64,000 bases of DNA from Nitrospirota bacterium (GTDB lineage: Bacteria; Nitrospirota; Thermodesulfovibrionia; Thermodesulfovibrionales; Magnetobacteriaceae), in contig JADFYO010000014.1 of NCBI GenBank assembly GCA_015233015.1, positions 1-64,000 on the forward strand, given 5' to 3'. The translations under genes and the position numbers were made by a program. Under the pieces are notes generated by a model, which was not told where the DNA came from, ran no database searches, and was given only the letters and a program-made list of their open reading frames with translations. Each line of letters starts with the position of its first letter. The stretch's first letter is position 1. Shown here piece by piece: positions 28,728 through 36,345 of this stretch.

Positions 28728-29477
28728 TTAACCCTTTCTGCACTTTTTGAATATCCCTATACCTCTTCCTATAAGGGAGTGTTTTTTCGCAGTATCTGGA
28801 CTTTCTGTTTTTGGCATGTATTTCTTTTCCCGCCACACGCAGATGTTGTTGGCAATCTCCTCGTCGAGGGCAATGTTAGACCCCTCGCATTCGATGACGA
28901 ATGATGGATATGTCTGGTGAAGTTTTATTTTTACACCTGGTCTGATTTGAAGGCCGTTTAATCTGTGAATCTCATGGTCCTTTCTGCAGTTGACATATGC
29001 CACGCGCGCCGACTGCCCAATTTCGAGGCCGGTGAGGTGGATGACTGAGCTTTCTATCGTAGTGGCGGCATTATCGCAGCACTCCCCGGGCGGAATCGGC
29101 AGACCCTGCGGACTTTCCTTTGGGTGCCCAAGCATAGTGCAAATGCTGTCCACAAGGGCAGGGCTGACCATGTGCTCAAACTCACAAGCGCCCTCCTCGA
29201 TGTTCTTGGTCATTCCCATTACGTCAAAAAGCAGTCTCTCGGCCAGCCTGTGAGCGCGGATTATACGTCTGGCTCGCTCCTCTCCTTTTATTGAAAGCGA
29301 TATGGTTTTATCGTCGTCAGAAACATCGGCAAGACTGCTGTCAAGGCAGTCGTTGACAATCTCCATGTTAAAGTTGTCCCCTATTTCAGCCTTCAATTCG
29401 GCCATCAGGTTTTTACCATCCTCTTTCATATACCAAAGGGCCTCAAGGTACTCGTCCATCTCCATCGTATTTTTCAT
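28728..29477 (-). CDS. DtxR-family regulator with C-terminal FeoA-like domain
   Basis: A 249-residue protein. The dimerisation and metal-binding domain of the DtxR/MntR family is clear (RAHRLAERLLFDVMGM, then EFEHMVSPALVDSICTMLGHP and PPGECC, with Cys/His/Glu ligands). Residues ~145-220 resemble a FeoA/SH3-like domain (LTGLEIGQSARVAYVN). The N-terminal winged helix is poorly conserved: the usual recognition helix is replaced by a Asp/Ser-rich stretch, so DNA binding may be weak or lost. It lies 53 bp downstream of feoB on the same strand, where it could sense ferrous iron and regulate FeoB or its gene. Confidence 0.75.
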   Translation of the reverse strand: MKNTMEMDEYLEALWYMKEDGKNLMAELKAEIGDNFNMEIVNDCLDSSLADVSDDDKTISLSIKGEERARRIIRAHRLAERLLFDVMGMTKNIEEGACEFEHMVSPALVDSICTMLGHPKESPQGLPIPPGECCDNAATTIESSVIHLTGLEIGQSARVAYVNCRKDHEIHRLNGLQIRPGVKIKLHQTYPSFVIECEGSNIALDEEIANNICVWREKKYMPKTESPDTAKKHSLIGRGIGIFKKCRKG

Positions 29478-29530: not shown

Positions 29531-31525
29531 TTAGAAAAATATTAGTAATACCCGGTTCAAAAACCCCGCAATGAGCACCGATGTAAATGTCATCGTAGAT
29601 ACCATGAACAGGGTGGACTTCCATCCCTGGTGTTTTACTATTATTCCTATATGGGCAAGGCATGGTACGAACATCGTGGTCAGTACTACCGCCACGATAC
29701 TCTGAACGAAATTCAAATGTCCGTTTTCAGACATTTTTATTATCACGCTGGCAGCGGCCTCCCTCCTTGCTATTACCAGAATCAGGGCGTCAACCATCTC
29801 GGTTGGCAGACCCAAAAATCCTTCGACTACTGGTTGAAGAAATACCTTCATAATCTTTAAAATACCTGTCTTATCCAGTGCAAACATGGCAATGGCGGCA
29901 TACATAAACGCCGGCAGGGCCTCCTCTAAAAACCAGAACAGGCGGTAGTAGGTCTTCTTGAGAACTGCCTTCAAATTCGGCATTCTGATTGCCGGCAACG
30001 CCTGTATAAAACAGCTCTTGTCGTCGTCCTTAATAATTTTGTTCAGGATAAGGCCGGTTATTGCCTCTATGGCGGCAAGAACGGAGAAGGTTATAATGAA
30101 TGCCTTTATTCCAACTCTGCCTAAGAGGCTCATATTAAGGCCAATCTGCGGGGCACAGGGTAGGGCGAACGCAATAAGAAAAATGGTTATGTACCTCTCC
30201 TTAGGCGATGTCAACGTCTTTGCGGTAAGCGTGGCCATTGTCTTACATCCAAACCCCAGCACCATAGGCATAATAGACGCCCCGCTCAGGCCGATCTTAT
30301 CAAAGACACGCTTAGATAACACACTAAGATTTGGGATGTATCCCACATCCTCCAGTGTATTGTACAGTATGAAATATACGGAGAGTATAGGCAGCACTGT
30401 CAACAATGCACCGCCCACGCCAAGCGTAAACACACCATAAGGGCCTATAAAAAAATCCTTCCAGAAAGGGTAGGTAATAAGCGAATCCAGACGTGTCTGC
30501 ACAGGGAGCCAGAGGAGCTTTTCCATCCAGTCCGATATCCAGTTCGCCACGTTTACGACCAGAAAGTATGTGGCAACTATAATTCCCATAAGAATCGGGA
30601 CGCCAAATATGACCGAACGGCACATGCGGGCAATAGTCTCAGATACCCTTCCGGTAAGTGCCACCTGCCTTTTTATGATTTTCTCTGTAACGGCATCGAC
30701 CCATTCCGCCCGTTTGTGATTTATAGTTCTGACAAGATTCCCCTTAAAATACTCCTGAACTTCGTTAACCGCGTCCTGTATCTTCCGGTACTGGTCTTCG
30801 GAGACAGCATCTATCAGGTATTTATCTAGAAAAGGGTCGTTAAGCAATGCTAAAATAGCGGTTTTTTGTTTATACGGAAGCGGCTCTGGCAGAAGTGCCT
30901 CCACCGTTGAGATGCCTCTTGACATAATATCGCCGTAGTGTATCGAAAGCTTCCCCACACGCGCCCTTTGTATGGCGATTTTGAGCTTGTTCGTTCCGAT
31001 TCCCTTTGTGGCTATGGACTCAATCACTGGAATGCCGGTGATTTGAGACAGCATGTCGGAGTCTATCCACATACCCTTTTTAGAGGTCTCGTCTATCGCG
31101 TTTATTGCTATTACCATAGGGATTTGAAGCTCCATGAGGTCTGCGGCGAGGGCAAGTGATTGTTTAAGCAGGTTTGCGTCTATACATAAAAGTAAGACGT
31201 CAGGCCTTTCCTGAAATATCAGGTCCCGCACCACCAGTTCGTCTTCCGAATGGATGAACAAACAGTAGAGTCCCGGCGTGTCATAGACCTCATAGGTCTC
31301 TTCCCCCATGCGGAACTTCCCTTTTTTGACGCATATGGTCGATAAGGGGTAGTTGGCAACGATAGAGTATTCACCTGTAAGGTTGTTAAAAATCTGGCTC
31401 TTACCGCTGTTTGGAAGGCCGGCGACTATTACTTTTTTGGGCGTCCGCGGCGTGTCCGTTGAACTGGTTTCGACAGAGGCATCGGGTACTATGGCCTTTT
31501 TCGTATCGTTTTTTTGCTTTGACAC
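29531..31525 (-). CDS. feoB: Ferrous iron transport protein B (FeoB-like)
   Basis: A 664-residue protein. A short hydrophilic N-tail precedes a small GTPase: G1 GLPNSGKS (residues 36-43), G3 DTPG, G4 NAID. The remainder is a membrane region with about ten helices and the paired Gate regions (FWLEE-type stretch FWFLEEALPAFMYAAIAM, and VLGFGCKTMATL). It imports Fe2+ across the inner membrane, with the G domain as switch. It lacks a separate feoA in front, but the downstream DtxR-like protein carries a FeoA domain. The promoter region is shared with the divergent actin-like gene. Confidence 0.88.
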   Translation of the reverse strand: MSKQKNDTKKAIVPDASVETSSTDTPRTPKKVIVAGLPNSGKSQIFNNLTGEYSIVANYPLSTICVKKGKFRMGEETYEVYDTPGLYCLFIHSEDELVVRDLIFQERPDVLLLCIDANLLKQSLALAADLMELQIPMVIAINAIDETSKKGMWIDSDMLSQITGIPVIESIATKGIGTNKLKIAIQRARVGKLSIHYGDIMSRGISTVEALLPEPLPYKQKTAILALLNDPFLDKYLIDAVSEDQYRKIQDAVNEVQEYFKGNLVRTINHKRAEWVDAVTEKIIKRQVALTGRVSETIARMCRSVIFGVPILMGIIVATYFLVVNVANWISDWMEKLLWLPVQTRLDSLITYPFWKDFFIGPYGVFTLGVGGALLTVLPILSVYFILYNTLEDVGYIPNLSVLSKRVFDKIGLSGASIMPMVLGFGCKTMATLTAKTLTSPKERYITIFLIAFALPCAPQIGLNMSLLGRVGIKAFIITFSVLAAIEAITGLILNKIIKDDDKSCFIQALPAIRMPNLKAVLKKTYYRLFWFLEEALPAFMYAAIAMFALDKTGILKIMKVFLQPVVEGFLGLPTEMVDALILVIARREAAASVIIKMSENGHLNFVQSIVAVVLTTMFVPCLAHIGIIVKHQGWKSTLFMVSTMTFTSVLIAGFLNRVLLIFF

Positions 31526-31565
31526 CTTGTTGCCCCTTAAACGGCTTTCATTTGAAATATTTTAC

Positions 31566-31597
31566 TTGACAACACAAACAAAATAGCATTACTATTT
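31566..31597 (+). promoter_or_regulatory. Promoter with overlapping palindrome, feoB/actin-like intergenic region
   Basis: TTGACA (31566-31571) and TACTAT (31590-31595) are 18 bp apart, an excellent sigma-70 promoter for the actin-like gene 75 bp downstream. AAATAG-CATTA-CTATTT (31581-31597) is a perfect 6-5-6 inverted repeat lying across the -10 box and could be an operator for either divergent operon, for instance a metal-responsive one. Confidence 0.5.
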
Positions 31598-31670
31598 ACA
31601 GCACGTTAAGATAACATAAATTTTGGCTAATTGCAATCAGATTATATTTATATAGAAAAAGGGGGATAAG

Positions 31671-32942
31671 ATGGCCGAAGCGAGCGAGTATCAAAAAGAA
31701 ATCGAAAGATTAAAACAGAGACTTACTGAGATAGAGGCGCCGCCTGTGCCGCAAACTGAGGTGTCAGCCGCTGCCGGCGCGGGCAGGCCGTCCGAAGCTT
31801 CGAGAGTTGACGCTCCCCGCGTGGAATCGTTTTCCTCTCCATCAATCCCGATAAATCAGAACGTTTCTGACCAGAAAATAGAAGCGGCCGTAAAGACAGC
31901 AGTAAAACCCACCGTCTCGCATGAAATGGGAGTCGGCTCAGAACCTGAAAGCCCGTGGGGTCCGGTAGGGCTTGACGTCGGCACAAGCAATATAGTCATG
32001 GCCCAGAATAAGGGCAATAAAGTACAAATAATTAAGCAGCTAAACGCCTTTTTCACCATACCCCAGTCCAAATTCACCAAACAGATACTCACTCAAAATA
32101 ATGTAATGTTTTTCGAGCACAACAAACGCTACTATATTATAGGATACTCCGCCGAGGGCTTTGCCAATATGTTTAACTCCAACACAAGGAAGTCGATGGA
32201 AAAAGGCCTTCTAAGCCCGCGTGAAGACGAAGCCGTTATCGTTATTCAGTCTATAATAAACACCCTGATTCAAAAACCCAAGAAATTCGGTGAAATAATC
32301 TGTTTCAGTGTCCCCGGGCAGCCGATAGAAAGAGAAGTCATCATTACCGGGCACGAATCAATAATAAAGATGTATCTGGAGACACTTGGCTACACACCTA
32401 TCTCGATAAACGAGGGCCTCGCCGTGGTAATGTCCGAGCTGTCGGACGATAGTTTTACGGGCATAGGTGTAAGCATGGGCGGTGGGATGTGTAACGTCTG
32501 CCTTTCATATTTATCAGTGCCTGTTATAACGTATAGTATTCAAAAGGGCGGCGATTACATAGATGAAATGGCAAGTCTCGAAACAGGCGAACCTGCCACA
32601 AAGATAAAGGTCATAAAAGAAGAGTCTTTAGACCTCTCCGTTCTCCCTAAAAACAAGCTTGAGCTGACAATGCACCTTTATTATAACGACCTTATCAATC
32701 ACCTCGTAAGGAGTATTCAGGACGTTATAACGTCGTCTGAAAATATACCAAAAATTACCGAACCAATCCCGATAGTATTAAGCGGCGGAACGGCTATGCC
32801 AAAAGGATGTAAGGAAAAATTTGAAAAGGCCCTCAATGCTATCAGACTGCCGATTGAGATCTCCTCAATCAGGGTTGCAAAGGAGCCTCTTAATGCCACA
32901 GCAAAAGGGGCATTGGTAATGGCTATGGCAGAATCCCGTTAA
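31671..32942 (+). CDS. Actin-like ATPase (MreB/MamK-type fold), uncharacterised subfamily
   Basis: A 423-residue protein. Residues 1-95 are a charged coiled-coil start (EYQKEIERLKQRLTEIE) and a Pro/Ala-rich linker. Residues ~97-420 form the actin fold: phosphate-1 GLDVGTSN (around D102), phosphate-2 GIGVSMGGGMCNV, and adenosine motif VLSGGTAMPKG. It should bind ATP and may polymerise. The sequence differs from standard MreB and FtsA, and shares its GDYID/SINEGLAVV motifs with a little-studied actin-like group; MamK is the nearest well-known filament former, but there are no other magnetosome genes here. It opens the cluster with the receiver-like, MinD-like and V4R genes. Confidence 0.75.
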   Translation: MAEASEYQKEIERLKQRLTEIEAPPVPQTEVSAAAGAGRPSEASRVDAPRVESFSSPSIPINQNVSDQKIEAAVKTAVKPTVSHEMGVGSEPESPWGPVGLDVGTSNIVMAQNKGNKVQIIKQLNAFFTIPQSKFTKQILTQNNVMFFEHNKRYYIIGYSAEGFANMFNSNTRKSMEKGLLSPREDEAVIVIQSIINTLIQKPKKFGEIICFSVPGQPIEREVIITGHESIIKMYLETLGYTPISINEGLAVVMSELSDDSFTGIGVSMGGGMCNVCLSYLSVPVITYSIQKGGDYIDEMASLETGEPATKIKVIKEESLDLSVLPKNKLELTMHLYYNDLINHLVRSIQDVITSSENIPKITEPIPIVLSGGTAMPKGCKEKFEKALNAIRLPIEISSIRVAKEPLNATAKGALVMAMAESR

Positions 32943-32967
32943 CTTAGAGCCGTCAGCGATAAAAAAA

Positions 32968-33501
32968 ATGTCTCTTAAGGTAGTCATTTTTTCAGCCGAT
33001 ACCATTAGAGGAAGTATGATAAAAAAGGCTCTTGAGAGATGGGTTGATAAACCCGCGCGTGATTCCGGCATTCAGCCCGGCGGCAGTGACTCCAGAGTTA
33101 CCCAATATGAAGAGAAAATACCAGTTCTGATTCTTTTTTTTGAGGACTTGCTCAATATCGAAGAGACGCTTACAAGGGAAAGGCCGGCGGTTGTGGTTTT
33201 GGATATGAAAGGATATTTCCAGGGGGAATTGGAGAAATTCAGAAACGGCTGTGCGCAGCTCTTTGCGCAGGCGGTATATTTTAAAGTATTGGCTATAGGA
33301 AACACAGTGCGAAAAGAATCGTCGGTTATAAAAGATGTGGTAAGCGATTGGTGTATGGATACTCCTATTGACCCCGTGCTGATTGTATCAAAAGTCAGAA
33401 TGCTTCTTGCTTCCGGCGCTAAAAGCGGCAGTAACGGCAACAATCAATCCGATACAGATGTCCTGATGAGCAATCTGATGGGATTTCTCAACATAAAATG
33501 A
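32968..33501 (+). CDS. Receiver-like (pseudo-response-regulator) small protein
   Basis: A 177-residue protein with no recognised full-length family. The strand-helix pattern is receiver-like: VVIFSADTIRGSMIKKALE at the start, VVVLDMKGYF in the strand-3 position with one Asp, and a last helix DPVLIVSKVRMLLASG as in response regulators. The strand-1 acidic pair is reduced to one Asp and the conserved Lys before the final helix is missing (CMDTPIDP). Phosphorylation is therefore doubtful and a protein-binding role is likely. It starts 25 bp after the actin-like gene and 36 bp before the MinD-like gene, so it probably belongs to their complex. Confidence 0.6.
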   Translation: MSLKVVIFSADTIRGSMIKKALERWVDKPARDSGIQPGGSDSRVTQYEEKIPVLILFFEDLLNIEETLTRERPAVVVLDMKGYFQGELEKFRNGCAQLFAQAVYFKVLAIGNTVRKESSVIKDVVSDWCMDTPIDPVLIVSKVRMLLASGAKSGSNGNNQSDTDVLMSNLMGFLNIK

Positions 33502-33537
33502 TTGCTTTCTTATATATTATAGACAGGAGCGTGTAAC

Positions 33538-34443
33538 ATGCCAAAGAAAGTTATTGCAATAGTAGGGCCAAAAGGAGGCGTTGGGAAAAGCACTATAACA
33601 GCCAATCTCGCCATCGCCATAGCCGGGTTGGGGAAGAAGACTATTGCCGTTGACCTTGACCTCGGCGGGGCAAATCTGCATGTTATTCTTGGGATACGGA
33701 GTTACGCATATTCACTTGACGATTTTGTCCTGAAGCATATAAAAACGCTTGAGCAGTCGCTCATCGAGACAGATATCCCGAATCTGAAACTCATCTGCGG
33801 AGGCTCTAAAATTCCCGATATAGCAAACATGCCTTTCCAGCAGAAGGTCAAGCTGATAGGGCATATTTCAAAGCTGGACTGTGATGTCGTAATTCTGGAT
33901 TTAGCGGCTGGTTCGGCCTTTAACGTAGTGGATTTTTTATTCATAGCGCAAATCGGGCTTTTGGTGACTACCCCTGAGGTAACATCTTTGATGAAGGCGT
34001 ACGGTTTTATAAAAACAGCGATATTCAGGCTGTTGACCTTTCATTTTAAGGAAAGACATACGGAGCAATTCATGGAACTCCTCGACAAGGCTAAGGACGT
34101 AGATGCTAATCCAGATTTAAATACAATAGAAAAATTTCTCAAGGCTGCCGAAAAAATAGACGCAGGGCTTGTGGAATCAGCCCGTAAGAAAATCGCGCGC
34201 TTTACTCCCAGTTTTGTAATCAATATGGTTCAATCGGCGCGGGACATAAACACGGGGATGGTAATTCAAAATCTGGTAAAGCAATACACAAACTTAAACA
34301 CGAAGGTCATGATGACGCTGCCAAACGACGAATCGGTAAAACGCGCTTTATTCAAGACTAAGCCGGTCATGCTTAGTGAACCTATGTCGCCGTTTGCAAT
34401 CGCTATCAAGGAACTCGCGCATAAATGTATAAACACGGTTTAG
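33538..34443 (+). CDS. MinD/ParA/FlhG-type ATPase
   Basis: A 301-residue deviant Walker A ATPase with KGGVGKS at residues 12-18, Walker A' in VDLDLGGANLH and Walker B in VVILDLAAG. Enzymes of this family dimerise on ATP and position cell structures (septum, flagella, chemoreceptors, carboxysomes, plasmids) on membrane or nucleoid surfaces. The region ~170-220 carries an extra helical insert. A clear AGGAG precedes the ATG. No flagellar or division genes adjoin, and the neighbours are an actin-like ATPase and a V4R protein, so the cargo is unknown. Confidence 0.82.
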   Translation: MPKKVIAIVGPKGGVGKSTITANLAIAIAGLGKKTIAVDLDLGGANLHVILGIRSYAYSLDDFVLKHIKTLEQSLIETDIPNLKLICGGSKIPDIANMPFQQKVKLIGHISKLDCDVVILDLAAGSAFNVVDFLFIAQIGLLVTTPEVTSLMKAYGFIKTAIFRLLTFHFKERHTEQFMELLDKAKDVDANPDLNTIEKFLKAAEKIDAGLVESARKKIARFTPSFVINMVQSARDINTGMVIQNLVKQYTNLNTKVMMTLPNDESVKRALFKTKPVMLSEPMSPFAIAIKELAHKCINTV

Positions 34444-34519
34444 CTCAGGCAGTCTGAGCGGTAGTCTGCAACAGTGAGGCAGCAGGTACTTTATAATTGA
34501 ACAAAATTCAGGAGGGGCT

Positions 34520-35050
34520 ATGCCGGAGGATGCTAACCGCAAGTATAAGTTTAACTGGGATTTACTGGGAGATTTGCAATTAGGAAGGCCAAACCTTGGA
34601 CATCAGATGAGGGTAGAGGTCTATCGTCTGATGCAGTACAGTTTTAGAGACGTTATCGAGGAGCGCTATGGCTCGGATGAGGCCGACAGGGTTTTCTATG
34701 AAGCCGGGTTCCTGGCAGGTAAGGCAATTTACGACAATCTCATCGGGCAGCAGGAAGATCTGAACGCATTTATCAGGAAATTGCAGACCGTGCTGAAAGA
34801 GATGGGCATCGGCATCCTTCGCGTTGAGGAGGAAGACCTGAACAATGGCCGCATAACAATGACAGTTGCAGAAGACCTGGACTGCTCCGGGCTGCCTGAA
34901 ACCGGTATAGAGCTTTGCACCTTTGACGAAGGATTTCTTGCCGCACTTCTTAAAAGTTATTCAGGGAAGTCTTTTACGGTAAAAGAGATTGACTGCTGGT
35001 GCACGGGGGATCGCACCTGCCGTTTCTCCGCACAAGTTAACGAGGAATAA
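34520..35050 (+). CDS. V4R-domain protein
   Basis: A 176-residue cytoplasmic protein with AGGAGG just before its ATG. The C-terminal half matches the V4R (4-vinyl-reductase, XylR-N) small-molecule-binding fold: CTFDEGFLAALLKSYSGK, then KEIDCWCTGDRTCRF with the three conserved Cys. Such domains sense aromatic or other hydrophobic ligands, or bind metals, and often feed GGDEF or AAA+ domains. Its stop abuts the next ATG (TAAATGG), so it is translated with the diguanylate cyclase and is probably its sensor. Confidence 0.82.
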   Translation: MPEDANRKYKFNWDLLGDLQLGRPNLGHQMRVEVYRLMQYSFRDVIEERYGSDEADRVFYEAGFLAGKAIYDNLIGQQEDLNAFIRKLQTVLKEMGIGILRVEEEDLNNGRITMTVAEDLDCSGLPETGIELCTFDEGFLAALLKSYSGKSFTVKEIDCWCTGDRTCRFSAQVNEE

Positions 35051-36345
35051 ATGGACGAACGCACAGAGAAAATCATTGATCAGTTTGCCAAAGGACGCCT
35101 CCCTGTGATTGCTTCGGATGTGGAATACGCTGAGCAGCTTTCGGCGCTTAGTGTATATCTGGATGCAATCATGCGTTTTGCGCTGGCGCTTAGTAACGGC
35201 GACCTCAGCCAATCGATAGGGCAGGGTGTGGCAGGGCTGTCGGCAGTTTGAAGGCACTCCACGGCAGCTTAAAACACCTTACATGGCAGACTAAACAAAT
35301 CGCATCCGGTGATTTCTCCCAGAGGGTTGAGGTTATGGGGGAATTCTCAGCTGCCTTTAACAGCATGGTTGAAGGTCTCGACGAATCGCGAACTGAGCTT
35401 GAGACAGCATACAGTCGTATGAATGAAGATATGATTGAGCTTCAGAGAATGTCGGCGAAGCTCAAAGAGAGCGAGGAACGTTTCAGGCTGATTGCCGAGA
35501 GTGTTAGCGATGTCATCTGGACGCTTGACGCCTCGATGGAAAGTTTTACCTATGTAAGCCCATCGATTGCGTCCCTGCGTGGATTTACCGTTGAAGAGGC
35601 CATTGGTGAAACTCTTAAAGAGGCTCTGACGCCGGAGTCTTACGCCTATGTTCGAAACGCCCTGATGCAAAAACTTGCGTCCTTTAAGGAGTCCGGCAAT
35701 ATAGACCGCTTTTCGGAGAGGATTGAAATAGAACAAAAGTGCAAGGATGGAAGGATAATCCCTGTGGAGGTAGTCATCTCGGCCATCACCGCGGAGGATG
35801 GTCATATTAAGGAATTCGTAGGAATATCGAGGGATATTACAGAGCGTAAAAGGGAAGAAGAAAAACTAAAATACAGCAGCACACACGACGCCATGACAGG
35901 GCTTTACAACCGTGCCTTCTTCGATGACGAATTGGGACGTATAGCCCATGGCCCGCTGTTTCCGGTCAGCTTTATAGTGGCCGACCTGGACGGCCTGAAA
36001 CGTGTTAACGACTCAATCGGGCATGAGGCAGGCGACCAGCTCATCAGAGGGGCATCCGACGTGCTTAAGATGTCGTTTCGGAGAAGCGACGTAGTTGCGC
36101 GCACGGGAGGCGATGAATTCCTGATTATCCTCAGCATGACCGATGCGGAGCTAGCCGCTAAATCAATGGAGCGTATAAGGATATATCAAGAGCAGTATAA
36201 TAAGAATAGCGGTAACCTGCCGGTGTCTATATCACTTGGAGCGGCAACTGCCGAAACCCCCGAAGAGCTCGACGCGGCCATCAAAGAAGCCGACAAACGA
36301 ATGTACGACGATAAGGTATCCCGCAAACAGCAGCGCGTCGGCTAA
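35051..36345 (+). pseudogene. PAS-GGDEF diguanylate cyclase, broken by a one-base frameshift
   Basis: Two overlapping frames encode one protein. ATG 35051 opens 66 codons that run to a TGA at 35249-35251; the second frame covers about 35248-36345 (365 codons). Joined, they give ~431 residues: an N-terminal helical region, a HAMP-like stretch (SLKALHGSLKHLTWQTKQIA), a PAS domain (~150-270) and a GGDEF domain with intact ARTGGDEF and the RxxD inhibitory site RRSD five residues before it. Restoring one missing base near 35240 re-creates the family sequence G-S-L-K-A-L after A-G-L. It is the last gene of the V4R operon. A sequencing error is as likely as a true lesion; the GGDEF part may still be made. 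Confidence 0.75.

Follow-up and report, generated by a model that had tools for sequence, protein, structure and literature searches.

A group of co-oriented genes at positions 31671-36345 of a 64,000-nucleotide stretch of DNA from a Nitrospirota bacterium (GenBank assembly GCA_015233015.1, contig JADFYO010000014.1; hereafter the window, whose numbering is used for every feature of this locus) raises the question of what is positioned by a locus that encodes an actin-fold protein and a MinD-like ATPase with a degenerate receiver protein between them. An earlier note, made from the sequence alone, proposed a five-gene system unlike any described, in which a V4R-domain ligand sensor and a diguanylate cyclase would control a polymerising complex through cyclic di-GMP (c-di-GMP), and left its cargo unnamed. 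We find instead that the cluster is an already described accessory (satellite) magnetosome locus in a new genome. Together with its divergent neighbors the locus reads mad30, mad17 / mad28, receiver, mad29; the four named genes belong to a published magnetosome gene set (PMC9376291, PMC9840458, PMC10278575), Mad28 is the subject of experimental work (PMC10653835, PMC12713370, PMC12748827), and the cargo is the magnetosome chain. New here are the identity of the receiver, its conservation, and a second domain context, a penicillin-binding protein (PBP) fusion beside a second mad28-like gene.

Four of the five genes are intact open reading frames on the plus strand, as first described: mad28 (31671-32942, 423 residues), the receiver gene (32968-33501, 177 residues), mad29 (33538-34443, 301 residues), and a V4R-domain gene (34520-35050, 176 residues). 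The gaps between them are 25, 36, and 76 bases. The fifth, the cyclase gene, does not stand as described; its reading frame is broken.

The actin-like protein scores 277 bits against Pfam model Volactin (PF25216), whose gathering cut-off is 35, and just 32 bits against NCBIfam MamK model NF040964, whose cut-off of 400 bits is passed by none of 14 control genomes. Its AlphaFold2 model (pLDDT 84) matches MreB, MamK, and BeeR in Foldseek; a single-sequence PDB search with the protein returned no actin. Across 37 homologues, residues D102, G104, T105, G372, and G373 are invariant, so that the phosphate-1 and adenosine motifs are kept, and S268, the phosphate-2 serine, is present in all 37. Replacement of Asp by Ser in phosphate-2, xxxSxGxGxx, is what defines Mad28 (PMC10653835). 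The serine is found in 115 of 126 scanned genes, the other 11 giving no match to the regular expression, whereas Asp occupies the site at all 11 MamK loci inspected. We identify the protein, on these sequence features, as Mad28. The family scores and the phosphate-2 motif rule out a plain MamK or MreB orthologue, the identity that the earlier note had set against its own reading. Mad28 shares with MamK the actin fold and a part in magnetosome positioning, but the genuine MamK of this genome is encoded at another locus. With volactin of Haloferax volcanii, an archaeal shape factor, it shares a Pfam family at a score well over the curated cut-off.

An N-terminal extension is present, as had been noticed, although not as a coiled coil of ~95 residues: the model has a helix at residues 2-22, an unstructured linker to ~62, a second helix at 63-77, and the actin core from ~97 to 423. 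In Mad28 of Solidesulfovibrio magneticus RS-1, too, amphipathic helices at the N terminus are functional, and the protein forms no filaments without residues 1-30 (the first amphipathic helix) or 1-48 (the whole N-terminal region) (PMC12713370). Actin fold, phosphate-2 serine, and N-terminal helix are common to the window's protein and the Mad28 proteins of RS-1 and Desulfamplus magnetovallimortis BW-1, while the window's gene differs in lying off the mamK contig. Identity to the BW-1 protein is ~50%, the window protein having the longer linker. BW-1 has been reported with one mad28, whose product polymerises (PMC10653835), and a Mad28 homologue of D. magnetovallimortis (L180) is also encoded ahead of genes for a receiver and a MinD protein. 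Mad28 filaments form in vivo and in vitro (PMC10653835) and are curvature-associated (PMC12713370), and deletion of mad28 in RS-1 mislocalises magnetosome chains (PMC12748827). Polymerisation and magnetosome localisation have been shown for Mad28 orthologues (PMC10653835, PMC12713370).

The gene between mad28 and mad29 has been published merely as a "hypothetical protein". Single-sequence searches with its product against Pfam and NCBIfam gave nothing usable, and the protein is placed solely by alignment profile and fold search. A profile built from 27 sequences matches receivers in the PDB (Spo0F, 1.5e-6), AlphaFold2 predicts a (beta-alpha)5 domain (mean pLDDT 80), and Foldseek with this model finds receivers from 2e-6, among them the FrzS pseudo-receiver and the receiver-like CpaE entry 4dn6. 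The middle gene is a degenerate receiver, which bears out the earlier description. Phospho-acceptor D79 is present in 26 of the 27 sequences. The acidic pair is replaced by Ser-Ala and no Lys precedes the beta5 Pro, so that the full phosphorylation set is incomplete; with these residues missing, classical phosphorylation appears doubtful. Beyond a variable linker lies a conserved C-terminal helix, or tail, of pattern LxxxLxxFLx(I/L) (LMSNLMGFLNIK; 33454-33498, plus strand), in which L170 and L174 are invariant in all 27 sequences and which every free-standing receiver copy carries. Neither the receiver nor the MinD partner is mentioned in the searchable Mad28 literature; most subscription papers lie outside that search, so we claim no priority.

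The third protein has the deviant Walker A motif KGGVGKST, matches model minD_arch at 2.5e-31, and has FleN (5j1j, 3.4e-21) as its nearest solved structure. The claim that two positioning-type ATPases, one actin-fold and one of the deviant Walker A MinD type, stand together here is therefore right in kind. The ATPase is probably Mad29, a name that we take from gene order and published descriptions: it follows mad28 and one unnamed gene, as in the LBB01 region, which reads mad28, one unnamed gene, mad29 (PMC9376291). The order is identical in the satellite regions of LBB01, LBB02, and XS-1, which also have feoB and feoA companions (mad17 and mad30); the window differs in having mad17 and mad30 directly divergent from mad28 and a V4R gene and a broken cyclase gene downstream, and we now give a receiver fold to the product of its unnamed gene. 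In FSS-1, to judge by locus tags, two genes separate mad28 from mad29 (PMC7951924).

Both iron genes lie on the minus strand. A Mad17-like FeoB ferrous iron transporter (29531-31525; Pfam FeoB_N 5e-44, Gate, FeoB_C) is followed by a Mad30-like DtxR-type repressor fused to a FeoA domain (28728-29477; Fe_dep_repr_C 1.7e-22, FeoA 3e-10). In Nitrospirota magnetotactic bacteria, mad30 is the feoA homologue that adjoins mad17, a feoB (PMC9376291), and in XS-1, mad30, mad17, mad28, and a gene of unknown function share one contig (PMC10278575). A locus that matches XS-1 (L178) has DtxR-FeoA, FeoB, receiver, and actin genes, and a divergent feoB beside actin, receiver, and MinD genes recurs in L104, L105, L106, L107, and G265 (L099). 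The suspected iron link through the divergent feoB thus proved right in kind. The divergent intergenic region (31526-31670) is a candidate shared promoter region, with TTGACA-18-TACTAT at 31566-31595 (plus strand), its promoter-like matches being not clearly above those in shuffled sequence.

A search of genome contigs with an alignment of the actins found an ortholog 88-89% identical in Candidatus Magnetominusculus xianensis HCH-1, and further matches in Ca. Magnetominusculus LBB02, Ca. Magnetobacterium casense, Ca. Magnetomicrobium, Ca. Magnetocorallium, and Desulfobacterota, including Desulfamplus magnetovallimortis. The named relatives of the host are described magnetotactic taxa. The window's own genome encodes, on contig C22, a MamK of 468 bits, above the cut-off, from which we infer magnetotaxis; the host is a Candidatus Magnetominusculus species, in the Nitrospirota.

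Actin, receiver, and MinD-type ATPase genes are adjacent and co-oriented in 29 genomes (21 Nitrospirota and 8 Desulfobacterota or related bins), and the arrangement, for which a recurrence check had been proposed, is thus not unique to the window's genome. Such conservation of order and strand across two phyla is more than chance. A MamK over the cut-off occurs in 20 of the 22 triad genomes tested. The triad lies ~2.5 kb from mamK in G007 and ~4-23 kb from it in seven others (G265, G347, G430, G431, G418, G419, and G420). In one single-contig genome (G014) the triad occupies 405,907 to ~408.5 kb, with MamK located at 2,425,480 and a lone Mad28 at 2,428,170.

The receiver also occurs in a second setting. 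Thirteen genomes, the window's included (contig C69, L083:7393-10690), have a paralogous Mad28-like gene followed directly by a gene for a class A PBP of ~740 residues with transglycosylase and transpeptidase domains. The N-terminal segment of this PBP belongs to the receiver family (hhalign probability 99.9%, E-value 5e-35; independent hmmsearch E-values down to 1e-30) and precedes a membrane helix recognized by eye. The fused receivers all lack the tail, and no Mad29 gene adjoins any of them. From this contrast, contact with the actin would be made by the receiver domain, and the tail would be specific to the Mad29 setting. In two genomes with the fused setting (L172 and L176) no MamK scores over the cut-off. 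Separately, PBP fragments lie just upstream of a triad at L179:2-4900, in a genome likewise without a MamK over the cut-off.

We consider it likely that the window holds a satellite magnetosome locus of Ca. Magnetominusculus in which the receiver serves as an adaptor between Mad28 and Mad29. As others have shown for orthologues, Mad28 would polymerise into filaments that associate with membrane and curvature and determine where the magnetosome chain lies. The receiver domain would bind this filament, the helical tail of the receiver protein would provide a docking site for Mad29, and this ATPase, as a switch of the MinD/FleN type, would govern the position of the complex or its turnover; divergent feoB and DtxR-FeoA would supply magnetosome iron, following the published mad17/mad30 assignment. 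Several observations weigh against this account. The mad28 locus and mamK are on different contigs in the window's genome, so that their linkage rests on relatives. In two of the triad genomes (G351 and G425) no MamK exceeds the cut-off. In many Desulfobulbales-type genomes a Mad28-like actin stands alone, with neither receiver nor Mad29 and sometimes with no MamK, and the actin family is therefore not exclusively magnetosomal. The collections searched yielded no record named Mad29, and the docking of Mad29 by the tail is suggested by co-occurrence alone.

The two receiver settings admit a broader role, which we put forward tentatively, as somewhat less probable than not. The receiver may be a general adaptor for Mad28-type actins, one filament being coupled to peptidoglycan synthesis through the class A PBP and another, through the tail, to Mad29 and the magnetosome chain. 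Another reading, in which the triad would mainly serve cell shape or wall growth, with curvature-sensing Mad28-type filaments steering peptidoglycan synthesis via receivers and magnetosome placement being a by-product or later use, seems to us unlikely. The receiver-PBP fusion beside a Mad28-like gene, including the two genomes without a MamK over the cut-off, the PBP pieces upstream of the L179 triad, and the membership of Mad28 and volactin, a haloarchaeal shape protein, in one Pfam family (PMC10869688) are what one would expect of it. However, most triad genomes tested encode MamK, several triads are near mamK, and loss of mad28 in RS-1 mislocalises chains (PMC12748827). The tree of the actins, made by a quick method with a midpoint root and several long branches, gives no evolutionary direction between wall-linked and magnetosome-linked forms.

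The five-gene reading depends on the genes downstream of the triad. The V4R-domain protein (Pfam V4R 4e-12; MsvR-like 1.3e-20) is encoded by a gene whose stop codon (35048-35050) abuts the ATG of the cyclase gene at 35051, as had been noted, but that frame stops after 66 codons. Compared with three congeners, in which the gene is one frame of 432 codons, four bases are missing after 35237, and the HAMP-PAS-GGDEF frame (gene at 35051-36345, plus strand; GGDEF 1.9e-33, PAS 2.6e-13) is open only from ~35248. Either the cyclase gene is frameshifted in the window or the assembly is wrong at 35237-35238. By tblastn, the V4R gene occurs in five other Magnetominusculus-type loci and is absent from LBB02 and from nine loci of other genera; the cyclase, too, is absent from LBB02, a member of the same genus. 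V4R and cyclase genes are therefore genus-level downstream additions, outside the conserved module. They may be co-transcribed. Five co-oriented genes with short gaps, and V4R plus cyclase after the triad in six Magnetominusculus-type loci, are in keeping with a ligand-dependent control of polymerisation by c-di-GMP. Yet beyond the absences just given and the broken frame, Pfam detects no c-di-GMP effector domain in the actin, the receiver, or the ATPase, and we regard the proposal as largely refuted and very improbable.

An equally improbable reading takes the receiver and the MinD-type ATPase as a split module, like CpaE/TadZ or FleN, for placing a pole-bound machine (pilus or flagellum), the actin serving as scaffold. 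In CpaE, the receiver precedes the ATPase, matching the gene order here; the receiver model matches CpaE entry 4dn6 and the FrzS pseudo-receiver, and among solved structures the ATPase is nearest to FleN and FlhG-type site-determining proteins. Both systems pair a degenerate receiver with a MinD-type ATPase, but CpaE/TadZ is one polypeptide, whereas the genes are separate in all 29 triads, the ATPase is closest to FleN, an actin partner is present, and the association with MamK genomes is strong. A viral origin is set aside, no relatives of the MinD protein having been found in viral contigs.

Mad28-like actins also occur in other settings, and may extend beyond magnetotactic bacteria. Among the Desulfobulbales-type genomes with lone Mad28-like actins (L118-L168), 13 of 32 tested have no MamK over the cut-off, with the caveat that bins are incomplete; tandem MamK-scoring actins occur in Desulfobulbales-type genomes (G405:C23:213271-216029, with similar pairs in G407, G414, G415, and G417), including Desulfurivibrio sp. 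AMeS2. Two Nitrospirota genomes in which no MamK exceeds the cut-off have Volactin/Mad28-like actins within gas-vesicle clusters, alongside GvpL/GvpF and ATPases of the ArsA and CDC48 types (L094:9843-10883 and L095:9680-10786), and a Magnetobacteriaceae locus (L096:10238-12900) combines a gas-vesicle-type actin, an unknown 178-residue protein, and a Mad29-like ATPase, with the receiver gene absent. At L151:3555-5723 a Mad28-like actin is fused to a membrane protein that resembles a von Willebrand A-type domain, and a similar protein adjoins an actin-receiver pair at L156:11817-13664, both domains being recognized by eye only. In Desulfamplus bins, coiled-coil genes upstream of the actin are Mad23-26-like by position and composition.

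For deep-branching magnetotactic bacteria, these findings bear on how Mad28 finds cell curvature and on the role of Mad29. The receiver with its near-invariant tail, together with the PBP fusion beside a Mad28 paralogue, is a candidate link from an organelle-positioning actin to the cell wall. If the receiver is indeed a general adaptor, magnetosome positioning by Mad28 would share machinery, and perhaps origin, with curvature-directed wall growth.

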